Shown: positions 11,429 through 18,810 of the stretch, in pieces | How the letters are laid out: every line of letters starts with the position of its first letter | Position numbering within the stretch: the first letter of the stretch is position 1 | Origin: Geothrix sp. 21YS21S-2 | GTDB taxonomy: Bacteria; Acidobacteriota; Holophagae; Holophagales; Holophagaceae | Direction: 5' to 3' | Length of the DNA: 64,000 bases | Assembly (NCBI RefSeq): GCF_030846775.1 | Contig: NZ_CP132910.1 | Location: forward strand, 3,971,001 to 4,035,000 | The notes under the pieces: model-generated | What the model was told of the DNA's origin: nothing | Databases searched by the model: none | Seen by the model: the letters and a program-made list of their open reading frames with translations, nothing else | Made by a program: the position numbers and the translations under genes

Positions 11429-13141
11429 TTAGCCGGCGCGGTAGGGGGTGAAGTGGGGATCCCACTGCGCGCGGAGCACGGTCTTCTCGATGGTGGCGTC
11501 GTCCATGATCCGGCCCAGGCCCTCCTCGCGGGCCTGGCGGGCCACGGCGACGGCCACGGCGGTGGAGACCTTGCGAATGTCCTCCATCTCCGGGAGCATC
11601 ATGCCCTGGGCCTCCTGCTCGGGCGTGACCATCTCGCTGATGGCGCGGCTCGCGGCCAGGAGCATGCCGTCGGTGATCTTGGAGGCCTTGGCCACCAGGG
11701 CGCCCAGGCCCACGCCGGGGAAGATGTACATGTTGTTGCACTGGGAGGACCGCAGCACCTGGCCCTTCCACTCCATGGGCGGGAAGGGACTGCCGCAGGC
11801 CACGAGGCCCTTGCCGTCCGTGGCCTTCCACACCTGCTCGGGAGTGGCCTCGCACTTGGAGGTGGGGTTGCTCAGGGCGAAGACGATGGGGCGGTCCGTC
11901 ACCTTGGCCACCTCCTGGAGGATGGCTTCGCTGAACAGGCCGGTCTGGGCGGTGACGCCGACGAGCACCGTGGGCCGGCCGTTGCGCACCACGTCGAGCA
12001 TGCCGATCTTCCCGGGGGCGTCCAGCTTCCAGCCGGCCACCGCCGCGCGGCGCTGGGCCATGGGGCGCTGGGGTTCCTCGAGAAGCGGGTCGTCCTCCAC
12101 CAGGAGGCCCTGCATGTCGATGCAGAAGACCCGGGCGCGGGCTTCCTCGTCCGAAAGTCCCTCCGCCTTGAGGGCGGCCTGGATGTTCATGGAGATGCCG
12201 GTGCCCGCCTGGCCCATGCCCACGATCATGTACCGCTCGTCGCTGAAGCGGCTCTTCTTGATGCGCATGGCGGTCATGAGGGCGGCCAGGGACGTGGAGC
12301 CGGTGCCCTGGATGTCGTCGTTGAAGGAGAGGATCCGGTCCTTGTAGCGCTCGAGGTTCTTGAAGGCGGTGGACTTGCCGAAGTCCTCCCACTGCAGGAG
12401 CGCGTCGGGGAAGTGGCGCTTCACGGCCATCACGAAGGTCTCGACGATCTTCTCGTATTCTTCGCCGCGCAGGCGGGGCTGACGGTAGCCCAGGTAGTAG
12501 GGGTCGTCCAGGAGCCGCTGGTTGTTGGTGCCGACGTCCAGGCACACCGGGAGGCATACGTGGGGATGCAGGCCGCCGGCGGCCACGTAGAGGCTCACCT
12601 TGCCCACGGGGATGCCCATGCCGTCCGAGCCCAGGTCCCCCAGGCCCAGGATGCGCTCGCCGTCGGTGACCACGATGAGGTTGACCATGGGCAGGGTGAT
12701 GTTCTTGAGCAGGGTGTCGATGTGGTCGATGTTCTCGGGCGTGATGTAGACGCCCCGGAAGCGCCGCTGGATGCTGCTCATCTGCAGGCAGGCCGTGCCG
12801 ACGGTGGGGGTGTAGACGATGGGCACCATCTCCTTGAGGTGGTCGGTGACCAGCTTGTAGAAGATCACCTCGCTGCGGTCCTGCAGGGCCACCAGAAAGA
12901 TGTATTTTTCAAGATCATCCGGCTTGTGATTGAACGCCTCGTAGGCTCGGCTGACCTGGTGCTCCAGGGGCAGGATCGCGGAGCGCACCAGGCCCTCCAG
13001 CCCGAGGGTCAGGCGCTCCTCCTTGGTGAAGCTGGCGGCCTTGTTGAGATGGGGGTCGTTGAGGAGCTGGCGGCCACGGGCGTAAACCTCGTAGTACTCC
13101 TCGCCCGTCATGGGGTCGATCTTGAAGGCGAAAGTCTTCAT
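11429..13141 (-). CDS. NAD(P)-dependent malic enzyme (large, MaeA/eukaryote-like type)
   Basis: This enzyme decarboxylates malate to pyruvate with reduction of NAD(P). The 570-residue reading from the ATG at 13141 has an AGGAGA site at good spacing; the frame stays open 18 codons further upstream without a ribosome binding site. Family motifs include YTPTVGTACLQMS, VTDGERILGLGDLGSDGMGI with the GxGDxG dinucleotide site, FNDDIQGTGSTSLAALMTAM and MIVGMGQAGTGISMNIQAAL. The length matches the ~560-residue ME class rather than the MaeB-PTA fusions. It is convergent with the lpxD operon and divergent from the Fe-S/NrfD operon. Confidence 0.95.
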   Translation of the reverse strand: MKTFAFKIDPMTGEEYYEVYARGRQLLNDPHLNKAASFTKEERLTLGLEGLVRSAILPLEHQVSRAYEAFNHKPDDLEKYIFLVALQDRSEVIFYKLVTDHLKEMVPIVYTPTVGTACLQMSSIQRRFRGVYITPENIDHIDTLLKNITLPMVNLIVVTDGERILGLGDLGSDGMGIPVGKVSLYVAAGGLHPHVCLPVCLDVGTNNQRLLDDPYYLGYRQPRLRGEEYEKIVETFVMAVKRHFPDALLQWEDFGKSTAFKNLERYKDRILSFNDDIQGTGSTSLAALMTAMRIKKSRFSDERYMIVGMGQAGTGISMNIQAALKAEGLSDEEARARVFCIDMQGLLVEDDPLLEEPQRPMAQRRAAVAGWKLDAPGKIGMLDVVRNGRPTVLVGVTAQTGLFSEAILQEVAKVTDRPIVFALSNPTSKCEATPEQVWKATDGKGLVACGSPFPPMEWKGQVLRSSQCNNMYIFPGVGLGALVAKASKITDGMLLAASRAISEMVTPEQEAQGMMLPEMEDIRKVSTAVAVAVARQAREEGLGRIMDDATIEKTVLRAQWDPHFTPYRAG

Positions 13142-13234
13142 GGTCCGGTCTCCTGCCTGAAAAAGGTTCCGGACCATCTTATCCCTTTTGTCCACCGATT
13201 CCGGGCCGCCTTATCGCCCGGCCAGCCCGAATTG

Positions 13235-13250: not shown

Positions 13251-13376
13251 TAAAACGACCTCTTTGTCGTGAAAGGAGTAATATCAGGGAATCCAGCGAC
13301 ATAGGCTTGAGATCTAACCCCTGCCGCCCGACGAAAGACCCCGCAAAGGTTCAGTAATCTTCATTTGGAGACATCC

Positions 13377-14141
13377 ATGGGTCAGAAAAAAGCACTGCTG
13401 ATCGATATCACGCTCTGCATCGGCTGCAACGCATGCCAGGCCGCTTGCAAGACCGAGAACAAGCTGCCGGAAGGGGACGAAAAGGCCCTCTCCCTGAGTG
13501 CCTTCACCGCCCTGAGCGAGCATGACGGCCTCTTCGTGAGGCACATGTGCCAGCACTGCGATATTCCTACCTGCGTGTCCGCTTGCCCGGTCGCAGCCCT
13601 GAAGAAGCAGGCCGACGGCCCGGTCCTCTACGACGGCGAGAAGTGCATCGGCTGCAGGTATTGCATGCAGGCGTGCCCCTTCCACATCCCCCGCTACGAA
13701 TGGAAGAGCACCCGGCCGGGGATCAAGAAGTGCATCCTGTGCGCCCCCCGCCTGGACAAGGGCCTGCCCACCGCCTGCGCCGAGGCCTGCCCGACCGGGG
13801 CCACGAAGTTCGGCGACCGGAACGATCTGCTCATCGAAGCCACGAACCGGATCACCGCCGATCCCGGCAAGTTCGTGCCCAAGATCTACGGCAAGTCCGA
13901 TGTGGGCGGCACCTCCGTCCTCTACATCAGCCCGGTCCCCTTCGAGAAGCTGGGCTTCGACACCCACCTGGGCCAGGAACCCATGCCCGTCCTGACCATG
14001 AACGCCCTGTCCAAGGTACCCAACGTCGTCGGCGTCGGGAGCGTCATGCTCGCCGGCATCTGGTGGATCACCAACCGCCGTGAGGACGTCGCCCGCAAGG
14101 AAGACCCGAAGCACGACTCCAACCACAAGAACCGGGGTTAA
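13377..14141 (+). CDS. Four-cluster ferredoxin-like electron-transfer subunit (HybA/HmcB/DmsB-like) with C-terminal membrane anchor
   Basis: The 254-residue protein has four cysteine clusters of the DmsB/HybA fold: CIGCNACQAAC, CQHCDIPTCVSAC, CIGCRYCMQAC, and CILC followed by CAEACPTGA. These predict four [4Fe-4S] centres. There is no Tat or Sec signal at the N-terminus (GQKKALLIDITLC), unlike HybA, so the clusters probably face the cytoplasm. A C-terminal hydrophobic segment (VVGVGSVMLAGIWWI, about residues 213-230) anchors it. The start at 13377 uses GGAGA; a TTG four codons upstream is weaker. It is followed at 2 bp by the NrfD-like partner. Confidence 0.9.
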   Translation: MGQKKALLIDITLCIGCNACQAACKTENKLPEGDEKALSLSAFTALSEHDGLFVRHMCQHCDIPTCVSACPVAALKKQADGPVLYDGEKCIGCRYCMQACPFHIPRYEWKSTRPGIKKCILCAPRLDKGLPTACAEACPTGATKFGDRNDLLIEATNRITADPGKFVPKIYGKSDVGGTSVLYISPVPFEKLGFDTHLGQEPMPVLTMNALSKVPNVVGVGSVMLAGIWWITNRREDVARKEDPKHDSNHKNRG

Positions 14142-14143
14142 GC

Positions 14144-15316
14144 ATGAAAACCTTCAAATTCCCCCGCATCACCTTCTGGGGCCTGGTCGCCACCACCCTG
14201 ATCGTCCTCGGCGTAGGCGCCGCCATCGCCCGGTTCACCCTGGGCCTGGGCGCCACCACGAACCTCACCGACGAGTTCCCCTGGGGCCTCTGGATCGGCT
14301 TCGACTTCCTGGGCATCGGGCTGGCGGCGGCCGGCTTCACCATCGTCGCGGCGGTGCACCTCTTCCACGCCAAGGCCTACGAGCCCATCGTGCGCCCTGC
14401 GATCCTGACCGCCTTCATCGGCTACCTCCTCGTGGTGCTGGTGCTCGTCATCGACCTGGGCCGCCCCGACCACTTCTGGCACCCCCTGGTGATGTGGAAC
14501 CACCATTCGGTGATGTTCGAGATCACCTGGTGCGTCATCCTCTACACCACGGTCCTGTCGGCCGAATTCGCGCCGATCGTGCTGGAGAAGTTCAACCTCC
14601 ACGCCCCCATCAAGTGGATCCACAGCGTGTCCCTGCCGCTGATGATCCTCGGCGTGCTGCTGTCCACCCTCCACCAGTCCTCCTTCGGCTCGCTCTACCT
14701 GATCGTGCCCAACCGGCTCCATCCGCTCTGGTACACGCCCCTGCTGCCCATCCTCTTCTTCATCTCCTGCATCGCCTCGGGCGTCTCGATGGTGATCCTG
14801 GAGACCCTCGTCCTGTCCCGGAGCGGCCGCACCCTGCTGCCCCCGGAACTCCGGGCCAACCTGGCCAAGATCACCGCCATCGCGCTGGCCGTGTACCTCG
14901 TGGTGCGCTTCCAGGACATGTTCACCCGCGGCGCCCTGGGCGAGCTCAAGCACCTGACCTACCACAGCACCGCGTTCTGGTTCGAGATCCTCGTGGGCTT
15001 CGTCATCCCCTTCATCCTGCTGATGTCCAACCGCATCCGCCACTCCCGGCGCGGCCTCTACGTCACCACCGTCATGGTGCTGGCGGGCTTCGCCGCCAAC
15101 CGCATGAACGTGGCCATCACCGGCCTGGAGAGCTATCCCACCCGCACCTACTTCCCGTCCCTTCTGGAAGTGCTCGTCATGACGGGCATCGCGGCCATCG
15201 GGTTCACGGCGTTCACCCTCATCGCCCGCTACCTCCCCATCTTCCCGGACGTGGCCCCTCCCGAGCCCGACGAACACCCGTTCTCCAGCCTCACCCCCGC
15301 GATGGAAGGGGAATGA
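14144..15316 (+). CDS. NrfD/HybB-type polytopic quinone-interacting membrane subunit
   Basis: This 390-residue protein has about ten hydrophobic segments and belongs to the NrfD/PsrC/HybB group, which passes electrons between the quinone pool and a partner Fe-S protein. Characteristic parts are the first membrane helix (TFWGLVATTLIVLGVGAAIA), WGLWIGFDFLGIGLAAAGFT, LDLGRP-like VIDLGRPDHFWHP and HQSSFGSLYLIVPNRLHPLW. The partner is the Fe-S protein 2 bp upstream. No molybdopterin enzyme, hydrogenase or cytochrome gene is adjacent, so the electron donor or acceptor is not identifiable here. Confidence 0.92.
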   Translation: MKTFKFPRITFWGLVATTLIVLGVGAAIARFTLGLGATTNLTDEFPWGLWIGFDFLGIGLAAAGFTIVAAVHLFHAKAYEPIVRPAILTAFIGYLLVVLVLVIDLGRPDHFWHPLVMWNHHSVMFEITWCVILYTTVLSAEFAPIVLEKFNLHAPIKWIHSVSLPLMILGVLLSTLHQSSFGSLYLIVPNRLHPLWYTPLLPILFFISCIASGVSMVILETLVLSRSGRTLLPPELRANLAKITAIALAVYLVVRFQDMFTRGALGELKHLTYHSTAFWFEILVGFVIPFILLMSNRIRHSRRGLYVTTVMVLAGFAANRMNVAITGLESYPTRTYFPSLLEVLVMTGIAAIGFTAFTLIARYLPIFPDVAPPEPDEHPFSSLTPAMEGE

Positions 15317-15317
15317 C

Positions 15318-16829
15318 ATGGGCACGCGCATCGGCACGCGCCTGATCCTGGGGGCCGGCCTGGTTTCGGCCCTGGCCATCGGGCTCATGGCGGGGCTGAT
15401 CATGCGCTCGCACAACGAAGGCCTGGTCTCCCAGCTCACCCGCAACGCCAACCAGCTGGGCGAGACCATCAAGAGCAGCACCCACTACGACATGCTCGAG
15501 AACCGCCGGGACGGCCTCCACAGGCAGATCCGGACGATGGGCACCCTGCGCGGGGAGGGCATCCGCAAGGTCCGGCTCTTCAACAAGGAGGGCCGGATCA
15601 TGTTCTCCTCGGACAGCGCGGAGATCGGCACCGCCGTGGACAAGCGCGGCGAGGCCTGCTACGCCTGCCACGCCGAGGGCCGCCCCCTGGAGAAGCTGGA
15701 CGTGAACGCCCGGGCCCGCGTCTACAGGGATGCCGACGGCACCCGGGTGCTGGGGATCATCAATCCCATTCCCAACGAGCCCTCCTGCTACACCGCCGAC
15801 TGCCACGCCCACGCCGCCTCCCAGCGCGTGCTGGGCGTCCTGGACGTGAACGTCTCCATGGCCGAGGCCGACAAGGAGATGGCCAGAGGCCGCCAGGTCA
15901 TGGCCGGCTTCGCGGCCCTGGCCATCCTCTGCAGCAGCCTCATCATCTGGTGGCTCAACCGCAAGCTGGTGGTCCGGCCCGTGGAGGCCCTCATGGAGGG
16001 CACCCTCCGGGTGGCCCAGGGCGACCTGGCCACGGTCATCAAGGTGGAGGGCCACCACGAGCTCAGCCATCTGGCCGAGGCCTTCAATGCGATGACGAGC
16101 CAGATTTCCGAAACCCGGCTCCAGCTCACCCAGGCCGACAAGCTCGCCTCCGTGGGCCGGCTCGCCGCGGGCATCGCCCACGAGATCAACAATCCCCTCA
16201 CCGGGGTCCTGACGTACGCCTCCCTCATGGCCAAGCGTCTTCCGGAAGGGGACCCCAACGCCGAGGACGTGGAGGTCATCGTCCGCGAGACCAAGCGCTG
16301 CCGGGCCATCATCAAGGAGCTCCTCGACTTCGCGCGGCCCGCCCCCCCCTCCCGCAGGCCGACGGACCTCAACGAGGTGGTGCGCCACTCCCTGGCCGTG
16401 GTGATGAACCAGCTGAGTCTCAATCACATCAACCTGGCCCTGGACCTCGCCCAGGACCTGCCGGAAGCCTACGCCGACGGCAACCAGGTGCAGCAGATCG
16501 CCGTGAACCTCCTCCTCAACGCCGCGGACGTCGTGCAGCCCGGAACCGGCCAGATCCGTCTGGCCACGCGGGTCTTCGACGACGCGTTCGTGGAGCTCCA
16601 GGTCACGGACAACGGCTCGGGCATCGCCCCCGAGGACCTGCCCCACCTCTTCGAACCCTTCTTCTCCACCAAGGGGAACCGCGGCACGGGCCTTGGCCTG
16701 GCCGTGACCTGGGGTATCGTGGAGAGTCACGGCGGCTCGATCGACGTCCAGACCGAACTGGGCAAGGGCACCACCTTCTCGATCCGCATCCCCATTCTCA
16801 ACCCTGAAGCCGGAATCTCCCCATCCTGA
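15318..16829 (+). CDS. Membrane sensor histidine kinase with c-type haem motifs in the periplasmic domain
   Basis: 503 residues: TM1 (about 9-30), periplasmic sensor (31-195), TM2 (196-213), HAMP (214-266), HisKA with phospho-acceptor His288 (AAGIAHEINNPLTGV), and a HATPase domain with N box NLLLNAADV, G1 DNGSGIAPEDL and G2 GTGLGLAVTWGI. The sensor contains CYACH (114-118), a haem c motif, and C157-YTAD-C162-H163, a CX4CH variant. Covalent haem makes redox or gas sensing likely, by analogy to haem-containing sensor kinases. It starts one base after the NrfD gene stop, so it is co-transcribed with the module it probably monitors. Confidence 0.9.
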   Translation: MGTRIGTRLILGAGLVSALAIGLMAGLIMRSHNEGLVSQLTRNANQLGETIKSSTHYDMLENRRDGLHRQIRTMGTLRGEGIRKVRLFNKEGRIMFSSDSAEIGTAVDKRGEACYACHAEGRPLEKLDVNARARVYRDADGTRVLGIINPIPNEPSCYTADCHAHAASQRVLGVLDVNVSMAEADKEMARGRQVMAGFAALAILCSSLIIWWLNRKLVVRPVEALMEGTLRVAQGDLATVIKVEGHHELSHLAEAFNAMTSQISETRLQLTQADKLASVGRLAAGIAHEINNPLTGVLTYASLMAKRLPEGDPNAEDVEVIVRETKRCRAIIKELLDFARPAPPSRRPTDLNEVVRHSLAVVMNQLSLNHINLALDLAQDLPEAYADGNQVQQIAVNLLLNAADVVQPGTGQIRLATRVFDDAFVELQVTDNGSGIAPEDLPHLFEPFFSTKGNRGTGLGLAVTWGIVESHGGSIDVQTELGKGTTFSIRIPILNPEAGISPS

Positions 16830-16843
16830 TAGGAGTCATTGCC

Positions 16844-17944
16844 ATGACCGTGCTGCTCGTAATAATCATGCTGCTCGCCTTCGTGGGCATCGACTACCTG
16901 GTGCGCGAGACCACCCGCCGGATGCGCGAGAAACGCCAGCGGGCCGCCCGCGAGGAGATCCTCAAGGTCGCCATCCGCCTGGACATCGCCGGCGAGGTCA
17001 AGACCCTCAAGCGCATCGAGGTCCCCGAGCCCCGCGCCCGCATCCTCGCCGTGGACGACGAAGGCATCGTGCTGGATTCCTTCCGCCGCATCCTCGTGCT
17101 GGAGGGCTACAACGTCGACACCGTCGAGAACGGCCCCGAGGCCCTGAACCTCGTCCAGCGCCACGACTACGACTTCGTCTTCACCGACCTGAAGATGCCC
17201 ATCATGGACGGCGTCGAGGTCGTCAAGGCCGTCAAGCACCTCCGTCCCGACGTGGACGTGGTCGTCATCACCGGCTACGCCACCATCGAGACCGCGGTGG
17301 AGACCATGAAGCACGGCGCCTCCGAATACGTGCAGAAGCCCTTCACCGCCGAGGAGCTCTCCGAATTCGTCAACCGCCTCCTGGTCAAGCGCCAGTCCCG
17401 CCTGGAAGGCCAGAAGGAGCCCACCGTCCGCATCGTCTCCCCCACCCAGGCCGAGAACGCCCCCGCCGGCGAGTACTGCGTCCCCGGCGGCTCCTTCATC
17501 TCCCCCGGCCACGCCTGGGTCCGCATCGAGCCCGACGGACAGGTGCGGGTCGGCGTTGACGACTTCGCGCACAAGGCCCTGGGCGAAGTGAGCGAGGTTG
17601 TCCTGCCCGATCCCGGCAAGACCTTCCAGGTGGGCGACCCCCTCTTCTCCTTCAAGCGCGGCGCCGAGGAGATCCGGTTCTTCGCCCCCATCACCGGGAA
17701 GGTGGTCGAGGACAACGCCCGGCTCAAGGCCGAGCCCTTCCTGGTGGCCAGCAGCCCCTACAAGGACGGCTGGGTCTGCCGCATCAAGCCCGCCGACCTG
17801 GCTTCCGAACTCGGCGCGCTGCGCATCGGCCGCCCCGTGGTCGAGTGGTACGGCGAGGAGATCAAGCGCCTGCGCGAGCTCAAGGTCGAGAACAACGGCC
17901 AGGACCTCGCCTGGGGCACCCTGGAGACCCGGTTCCTCAAGTAG
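16844..17944 (+). CDS. Membrane-anchored receiver domain fused to a GcvH-like domain
   Basis: The 366-residue protein begins with one hydrophobic segment (about 2-20) and a basic coiled stretch. A CheY-type receiver follows (about 65-180, phospho-acceptor Asp115 in FVFTDLKMPIMDG, lysine in EYVQKPF). The C-terminal domain (about 216-330) resembles glycine-cleavage H protein: SPGHAWVRIEPDGQVRVGVDD, LGEVSEVVLPDPGKTFQVGD, FFAPITGKVVEDN, YKDGWVCRIKPADL. Where GcvH has its lipoyl lysine, the loop reads FSFKRGAEEIRF and is about three residues longer, so lipoylation is doubtful. There is no DNA-binding domain. It is 14 bp downstream of the haem kinase, its obvious partner. Confidence 0.88.
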   Translation: MTVLLVIIMLLAFVGIDYLVRETTRRMREKRQRAAREEILKVAIRLDIAGEVKTLKRIEVPEPRARILAVDDEGIVLDSFRRILVLEGYNVDTVENGPEALNLVQRHDYDFVFTDLKMPIMDGVEVVKAVKHLRPDVDVVVITGYATIETAVETMKHGASEYVQKPFTAEELSEFVNRLLVKRQSRLEGQKEPTVRIVSPTQAENAPAGEYCVPGGSFISPGHAWVRIEPDGQVRVGVDDFAHKALGEVSEVVLPDPGKTFQVGDPLFSFKRGAEEIRFFAPITGKVVEDNARLKAEPFLVASSPYKDGWVCRIKPADLASELGALRIGRPVVEWYGEEIKRLRELKVENNGQDLAWGTLETRFLK

Positions 17945-18072: not shown

Positions 18073-18810
18073 ATGAAGTTCCTCGATGCGCTCAGGACCG
18101 TCCTCGTTCTCGCCGCCTGCGCGTTCGCACAGGCCCAGACCGACGTCACCGTCTACACGTACAACGACCGGCCCCCCTTCGTGGTGGACAAGGCGAAGCA
18201 GGACGGCCTCGAGTACCGCCTCTGCCAGTGGCTGACGAAGGAGAGCCGGACCTACCGCTTCACCCTCAAGGTGGTCACGGCCCCCGAGGCCAAGGCCATG
18301 GTGGACAAGGGCGAACTCAAGGGCGTCCTCCTGGGCGTCAACAAGGTCTGGTTCCCGGAACCGGTGCGGGCCGCCAGCCTGTGGACCCCCGCGATCCTGT
18401 GGGACCGCAACCTGGTGGTGTCCCTCGACGCGAAGAAGGTCGAGTACGCCGGACCCGCGTCCCTGGCGGGCCTGAAGCTCGCCGGCGTCGGCGGCTACGC
18501 CTACCCCGCCCTGACCGAGGCCGTGAAGGAGGGCCGCATCCAGCGTCTGGACTGCGGATCCGAGATCCTGGCCCTCCAGGCGGTGGCCGGAGGCAAGGCC
18601 GACGTGACCATCGTGAGCGAGTGGACGCTGATGTACGCCCAGCTCCGCCTGGACATCCCGGGCAACTTCTACCAGTCCAACAAGCCCTTCCTGGAATTCG
18701 AGCGGGTCATCCTCGTGCCGCCCGCCCAGAAGGAGCTCTACGAGCACCTGGTGAAGCTGCTCACCGACGTGCGGAAGAACGCCGGCTGGCAGGAGGCGAC
18801 CTCGCTCTGA
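18073..18810 (+). CDS. Periplasmic solute-binding protein, family 3 type (ABC/MltF-like)
   Basis: This 245-residue protein has a signal peptide (MKFLDALRTVLVLAACAFAQA) and a type II periplasmic-binding fold. Its start is VTVYTYNDRPPFVV, with GLEYRLCQWL and later LAGLKLAGVGGYAYP and GGKADVTIVSEW. No transporter genes flank it, so it may act as a receptor, for example for the upstream kinase system, or serve a remote ABC importer. The ribosome binding site is the G-rich CAGGGGGTAG. A terminator hairpin precedes it, so it has its own promoter. The ligand is unknown. Confidence 0.75.
   Translation: MKFLDALRTVLVLAACAFAQAQTDVTVYTYNDRPPFVVDKAKQDGLEYRLCQWLTKESRTYRFTLKVVTAPEAKAMVDKGELKGVLLGVNKVWFPEPVRAASLWTPAILWDRNLVVSLDAKKVEYAGPASLAGLKLAGVGGYAYPALTEAVKEGRIQRLDCGSEILALQAVAGGKADVTIVSEWTLMYAQLRLDIPGNFYQSNKPFLEFERVILVPPAQKELYEHLVKLLTDVRKNAGWQEATSL

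Follow-up and report, generated by a model that had tools for sequence, protein, structure and literature searches.

The window analysed here is a stretch of 64,000 nucleotides from the genome of Geothrix sp. 21YS21S-2 (contig NZ_CP132910.1, positions 3,971,001 to 4,035,000). Its forward strand carries an operon that encodes, in this order, a Fe-S subunit, an NrfD-type membrane subunit, a sensor histidine kinase and a response regulator whose receiver is fused to a GcvH-like domain, with gaps of 2, 1 and 14 bp between successive genes. The features of the operon and of its last product are the following, in positions of the window:

13365..14141, plus strand: Fe-S subunit, HmcB/HybA/FdnH-like, with four 4Fe-4S cysteine sets; first gene of the operon (Pfam, NCBIfam, sequence)
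14144..15316, plus strand: NrfD-type quinone-interacting membrane subunit, HybB/HmcC-like (PF03916, E 5.7e-28; NCBIfam matches below the equivalog cut-offs)
15318..16829, plus strand: sensor histidine kinase with a periplasmic sensor containing CYACH and CYTADCH, HAMP, HisKA and HATPase (Pfam, motifs)
16844..17944, plus strand: membrane-anchored response regulator of 366 residues with a GcvH-like output domain that lacks the lipoyl lysine (ORF, Pfam, AF2 model, relatives)
16847..16903, plus strand: hydrophobic N-terminal helix, residues 2-20, followed by the basic residues R21, R25, R26, R28, K30, R31 and R33 (sequence; AF2 helix 2-48)
17042..17371, plus strand: receiver domain, residues 67-176 (PF00072 Response_reg, E 5.4e-29; VIA-align; conserved residues)
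17186..17188, plus strand: phospho-acceptor Asp115 (conserved in all 35 membrane-bound and all 22 soluble fusions)
17474..17878, plus strand: GcvH-fold domain, residues 211-345 (PF01597, Foldseek, VIA-align)
17639..17683, plus strand: counterpart of the lipoyl hairpin of true H-proteins, residues 266-280, with A274 (17663-17665) at the lysine position and K271 at 17654-17656
17831..17938, plus strand: C-terminal helical extension after the GcvH fold, residues 330-365 (AF2 secondary structure; alignments)

The Fe-S subunit matches Fer4_11 (E 6.4e-24) and has 16 cysteines in four sets. The kinase is probably a di-heme sensor; one CxxCH and one Cx4CH motif are conserved in 69 of 73 related kinases. 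Its sensor resembles the Mcp40H-20 sensor family only weakly and below threshold (17.7 bits against a Pfam cut-off of 27). According to the available part of one source, heme-c Cache sensors of the DUF3365/GSU0582 group show nitric-oxide-sensor properties when fused to signalling modules (PMC12889525). The operon kinase is similar to kinases with such sensors in its periplasmic CxxCH sensor, with a sub-threshold Pfam match, and differs from them, as there described, in the second motif, CxxxxCH, that is conserved in its own group. A promoter and terminator scan of the operon returned two promoter-like and two terminator-like sites, and neither promoter-like site precedes the first gene on the same strand. 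The operon is flanked by a divergent, malic-enzyme-like gene (11429-13195, minus strand) and, just downstream, by a gene for a solute-binding-like secreted protein (18073-18810) that no Pfam family matches even at E 1, both named by eye.

The last gene opens with an ATG at 16844. A first-pass annotation of this DNA had read its product as a membrane helix, a receiver with an intact Asp115 and a domain resembling the glycine-cleavage H protein, without any DNA-binding part, and our data agree with this outline. In the AF2 model, built from 15 sequences and with a mean pLDDT of 85.5, residues 2-48 form one helix. Since its first 20 or so residues are hydrophobic and a run of arginines and lysines stands right behind them, the positive-inside rule predicts that the remainder of the protein, including the C-terminus, is cytoplasmic. 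The receiver, whose best VIA-align match is 3crn (Z 22.5), was typed by NCBIfam comparison as the NtrC/AtoC kind. Its residues D71, D72, D115, T143 and K165 are all intact and were kept in all 35 membrane-bound fusions among the loci read. Response_reg and GCV_H, each by a wide margin, are the only domains to pass the Pfam cut-offs; no third domain does so, and the AAA+ and DNA-binding domains of NtrC-type proteins are absent among the passing matches.

The identity of the output domain is supported by sequence, profile and structure. PF01597 (GCV_H) matches residues 223-321 with an E value of 9e-21, far over the Pfam cut-off, and the Thermus H-protein 1onl is the top PDB match in Foldseek (E 9.2e-13, TMt 0.90). 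Moreover, the H-protein 1htp superposes with a VIA-align Z of 19.8 and an rmsd of 1.5 over 131 aligned residues, and the 10-residue pLDDT means are 85-97 across the domain. The similarity to GcvH thus covers the fold and the whole scaffold, with about 33% identity and with the invariant H, W, G, P and Y positions retained. The differences are A274 in place of the lipoyl lysine, NCBIfam gcvH scores of 70.6 and 78.3 bits that stay under the respective cut-offs of 115.85 and 117, the fused receiver and membrane helix, the extra C-terminal helices and the absence of linkage to gcvT or gcvP. Kinship with the barrel-sandwich domains of NqrA and RnfC was also considered and is kept as a lead; the Pfam matches are all sub-threshold, that is, 13.8 bits for NQRA_N in the 366-residue protein (cut-off 25) and 22.3 bits for RnfC_N in a related locus, L008 (cut-off 25.6).

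The first-pass annotation had also proposed an insertion in the lipoyl-lysine region and, as a check, asked whether K271 is at the tip of the hairpin. Neither was borne out. The phmmer alignment to three solved H-proteins runs through the hairpin stretch without a gap, and in the AF2 model the two strands (266-272 and 275-280) leave G273-A274 as the tip. In the HMM alignment A274 occupies the lipoyl-lysine column and K271 stands three columns earlier. On the strength of alignment and model, a loop insertion and lipoylation at K271 were rejected. The accompanying suggestion of a non-lipoylated binding module stands, as a prediction from sequence and model: a GcvH fold with no conserved lipoyl lysine.

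It might still be argued that the domain serves as a redox carrier, with a lipoyl or octanoyl group on a lysine close to the site, such as K271. Lysine or arginine is indeed frequent in the column of K271, with K in 26 and R in 8 of the 58 receiver-fused rows, and some relatives have a lysine at or beside the lipoyl position, including 7 of these 58 rows at the true position. However, besides the position of the hairpin tip, the lipoyl-lysine column itself varies: all five canonical rows have K (four distinct genes, one taken twice), the receiver-fused rows have N (12), D (10), K (7), G (7), E (6), A (5), T (5), Q (2) and a few others, and K is found in only 3 of 107 stand-alone rows, one of them the canonical GcvH of this same genome. 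Apart from that GcvH, the 10 rows outside the canonical group with lysine in this column lack the E-S-x-K context. It follows that lipoylation is not conserved across the family, and a conserved lipoyl function is, judging from the alignments, unlikely. The comparison with LbpA of the sHdr sulfur-oxidation pathway points the same way: this lipoate-binding, GcvH-like family strictly retains its lysine, as described in the available part of PMC6067878. LbpA offers, within that same description, a precedent for a GcvH-like protein recruited to a redox system, but it keeps the lysine, binds lipoate, lies among sHdr genes and has no receiver; here the lysine is absent and the neighbours are Fe-S, NrfD and kinase genes. 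An acylated domain is hardly credible on this evidence. Glycine cleavage as the main role was likewise rejected, because the lysine is gone and the canonical genes lie elsewhere in the 5.25-Mb contig: a gcvH that has the lipoyl lysine at 1612103-1612456, gcvP at 3320990-3323294 and two genes over the lipA cut-off.

Relatives were found in Acidobacteriota, in Bacteroidota and in Myxococcota, in the last mostly as stand-alone membrane proteins. At a threshold of E <= 1e-30, the GcvH-like profile matched 80 of 297 genomes of the window's phylum (five of the 80, at about 1e-31 and ending near position 132-137, look canonical), 22 of 146 in the phylum of Anaeromyxobacter and 21 of 148 in the phylum of the Ignavibacteriales record. 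In a scan of one genome per species, membrane-bound fusions came from records named Holophagaceae, Bacteroidetes, Ignavibacteriales and Melioribacteraceae. In the window's own family group 26 of 27 genomes have a GcvH-like match. Because the match is near-full-length in 25 of these 27, and also in three other families of the phylum and in Bacteroidota, the combination of receiver and GcvH fold in one ORF is not a product of chance. Rare output domains are a common finding in response regulators, and the protein might for that reason be regarded as an unusual but unremarkable regulator, or as a decayed fusion with no present function. Nevertheless, its presence in nearly all genomes of the family group, together with its conserved residues and neighbours, indicates that the receiver-GcvH protein is under selection, and we consider this reading very improbable.

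The gene neighbourhood was read in 109 loci with a member of the family, of which 99 came from a set of 100 fetched stretches (the other being a control) and 10 from the 79 loci of the scan; they had been picked by a GcvH-like or fusion match, not by NrfD, and the receivers were counted with a model of five seed sequences. Among the 35 loci with a membrane-bound fusion, NrfD and Fe-S genes were present in 33 and the heme kinase in 34; where the locus was well flanked (at least 6 kb on both sides), all three were present in 25 of 25. By comparison, no NrfD or Fe-S gene was detected at the same threshold in 66 loci (687 kb) fetched for receivers alone. The first-pass idea that the domain docks to the NrfD/Fe-S complex is thus strongly backed as regards a link with these genes. 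Loci with only a stand-alone GcvH-like gene have NrfD and Fe-S in 43 of 71 cases (28 of 44 when well flanked). No NrfD was seen in the stretch read at the other 28, some of which are contig ends and 16 of which are well flanked; stand-alone membrane GcvH-like genes of this kind are those of L100-L104, L136-L138, L140 and L186. In seven stand-alone loci without NrfD, no shared partner was recognised by eye among the neighbours. The remaining three loci (L096, L097 and L098) have soluble receiver-GcvH fusions only; their kinase carries no heme motif and NrfD is missing from the stretch read, which places the output domain in a further setting.

These data bear on two other ways of seeing the protein. 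The GcvH-like domain may be a constitutive part of the NrfD complex with a role in its structure or assembly, to which the fused receiver adds a phosphate sink or an anchor for the kinase and no regulation. The 43 loci with stand-alone membrane GcvH-like proteins beside NrfD, with no fused receiver, suggest that the basic job of the domain is independent of phosphorylation, and some operons have two or more GcvH-like genes. On the other hand, all five receiver residues are kept in every membrane-bound fusion. We hold this possibility to be unlikely, if the least so of the rivals. The second is that the protein is an adaptor which, by mimicry of the H-protein surface, relays the phospho-signal to some other cytoplasmic protein (a transcription factor, dihydrolipoamide dehydrogenase, GcvP or a lipoate enzyme). 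The retained scaffold, the presence of canonical glycine-cleavage genes in the genome and the 28 stand-alone loci with no NrfD in the stretch read would all fit such a role. Yet the operon contains no glycine-cleavage or lipoate gene, the canonical gcvH, gcvP and lipA are far away, and it is NrfD/Fe-S that forms the conserved neighbour, which makes an adaptor of this kind improbable.

Further information came from the other regulators in these operons. The GAFTGA sequence, which we take to be the sigma-54 motif that marks NtrC-type receiver proteins, was found in a receiver protein in 26 of the 33 stand-alone-GcvH operons that have NrfD and the heme kinase, against 0 of 33 fusion operons (Fisher p 5e-12, with loci that are not independent), and in none of the 35 membrane-bound fusion loci. 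With no GAFTGA receiver protein in the fusion loci, a pure phosphate sink would deprive the heme kinase of any nearby output. Of the seven stand-alone operons that lack GAFTGA, six encode a separate receiver ORF of 470 residues or more. In the last one, L008, the receiver is membrane-anchored and has no GcvH part, and a membrane GcvH-like protein is encoded by a gene of its own. Receiver and GcvH-like protein therefore occur together, fused or not. The NtrC/AtoC-type regulators of the related operons have the same kind of receiver as the 366-residue protein, and are likewise paired with a related di-heme kinase next to NrfD/Fe-S; the latter protein differs in having no AAA+ or DNA-binding domain, a GcvH-like output and a membrane tether.

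In quick trees, the GcvH domains of the membrane-bound fusions form one group of 37 rows, one of them a contig-end fragment (SH-aLRT 88), and those of the soluble fusions form another (SH-aLRT 95); all trees use segments cut with the first receiver model, made from four seeds of which one was in the wrong frame. The respective trees place both the kinase and the receiver of the window's operon in the fusion group. The kinase and receiver of L008 also fall within that group (SH-aLRT 99 in each set), and its GcvH-like domain falls outside. As the membrane-bound fusion is one clade, the neighbourhood and GAFTGA counts do not represent independent events, and the contrast of 33 against 33 operons amounts to a single evolutionary switch plus L008. 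In four loci a soluble fusion stands directly before the membrane-bound one (L004:5133-5936, L005:5069-5872, L006:5172-5969, L007:5178-5972); these soluble proteins belong to the separate clade and end in a conserved CSSD tail.

The location of the Fe-S subunit may vary among the operons. A Tat-like signal was recognised on this subunit, with a crude pattern for which L099 looks like a false positive, in 12 of 17 Bacteroidota fusion loci (at least three of the others, L004-L006, are cut at the locus end) and in 8 of 9 Myxococcota loci. In the 13 Holophagaceae loci (L001-L003 and L196-L205) the subunit has no Tat-like signal, and in the window none is in frame for 13365-14141. An ORF nearby with at least three CxxCH motifs is absent from all of these 13 loci, against 17 of 17 Bacteroidota fusion operons with one. 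Large multiheme ORFs, with up to 19 and 16 CxxCH, adjoin Bacteroidota operons in L156, L158, L159, L162-L164 and L168, which suggests extracellular electron transfer, and single ORFs of L008 (8159-10165) and L094 (3-3266) join NrfD to a multiheme cytochrome region, with 6 and 14 CxxCH. The complex may exist in two versions that differ in the side of the membrane holding the Fe-S subunit. A subunit with a Tat-like signal should be periplasmic, across the membrane from the receiver and GcvH domain, which must be cytoplasmic. Where such a signal is present, it is therefore doubtful that the protein docks to the Fe-S subunit, and the cytoplasmic face of NrfD is a likelier target.

We therefore favour, at about an even chance of being right, a membrane-tethered and phosphorylation-controlled docking module, free of lipoate, that would act on the NrfD complex at its cytoplasmic face. 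The computed architecture and fold, the absence of the lipoyl lysine, the phosphorylation residues, the operon with its conserved linkage and the replacement of the NtrC-type regulator are what this reading builds upon. The receiver-GcvH protein would be the output of a redox- or ligand-sensing two-component system placed inside an NrfD/Fe-S quinone oxidoreductase operon. The heme-bearing periplasmic sensor kinase would phosphorylate D115 of the tethered receiver, and this would shift the position of the attached GcvH-fold domain, which may then bind a protein at the cytoplasmic face of the complex. Such docking could alter assembly of the complex or its electron or proton flow, in either direction, so that the output would be a post-translational effect at the membrane and not transcription. 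An ordinary regulator with some other partner would also be compatible with the signalling neighbours, and the stand-alone loci without NrfD indicate that the GcvH-like domain may have one.

A cofactor-free subunit facing the cytoplasm has a precedent in ActD of alternative complex III, which makes up most of the cytoplasmic part beside the NrfD-like subunit, as given in the available part of PMC5928083. The likeness would be one of role, with no homology claimed: ActD, in that account, has two helices, a different fold and no receiver. In searches of open-licence PMC papers, no title or opening of an abstract described a response regulator whose output is an H-protein domain without its cofactor and tethered to the membrane, and the available part of a review of NrfD proteins (PMC8076601) makes no mention of response regulators, two-component systems or glycine cleavage. 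The protein would thus be a response regulator with a new output.

To our knowledge, very few response regulators act directly on an energy-converting membrane complex. More tentatively, we suggest that the system bypasses transcription altogether and gates a respiratory complex directly, from heme kinase to tethered receiver to a cofactor-less H-protein domain on the NrfD quinone module. This arrangement may have arisen when an NtrC-type output was swapped for the GcvH-like accessory protein of the complex, the soluble fusion having arisen separately. The case also shows an H-protein scaffold reused, as predicted without its cofactor, in a family that spans three phyla and whose members may be annotated as glycine-cleavage proteins, and a set of uncharacterised NrfD operons becomes testable. 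If the direct gating is true, bacteria with multiheme or extracellular electron pathways would be able to tune quinone-linked respiration rapidly from a periplasmic heme reading.
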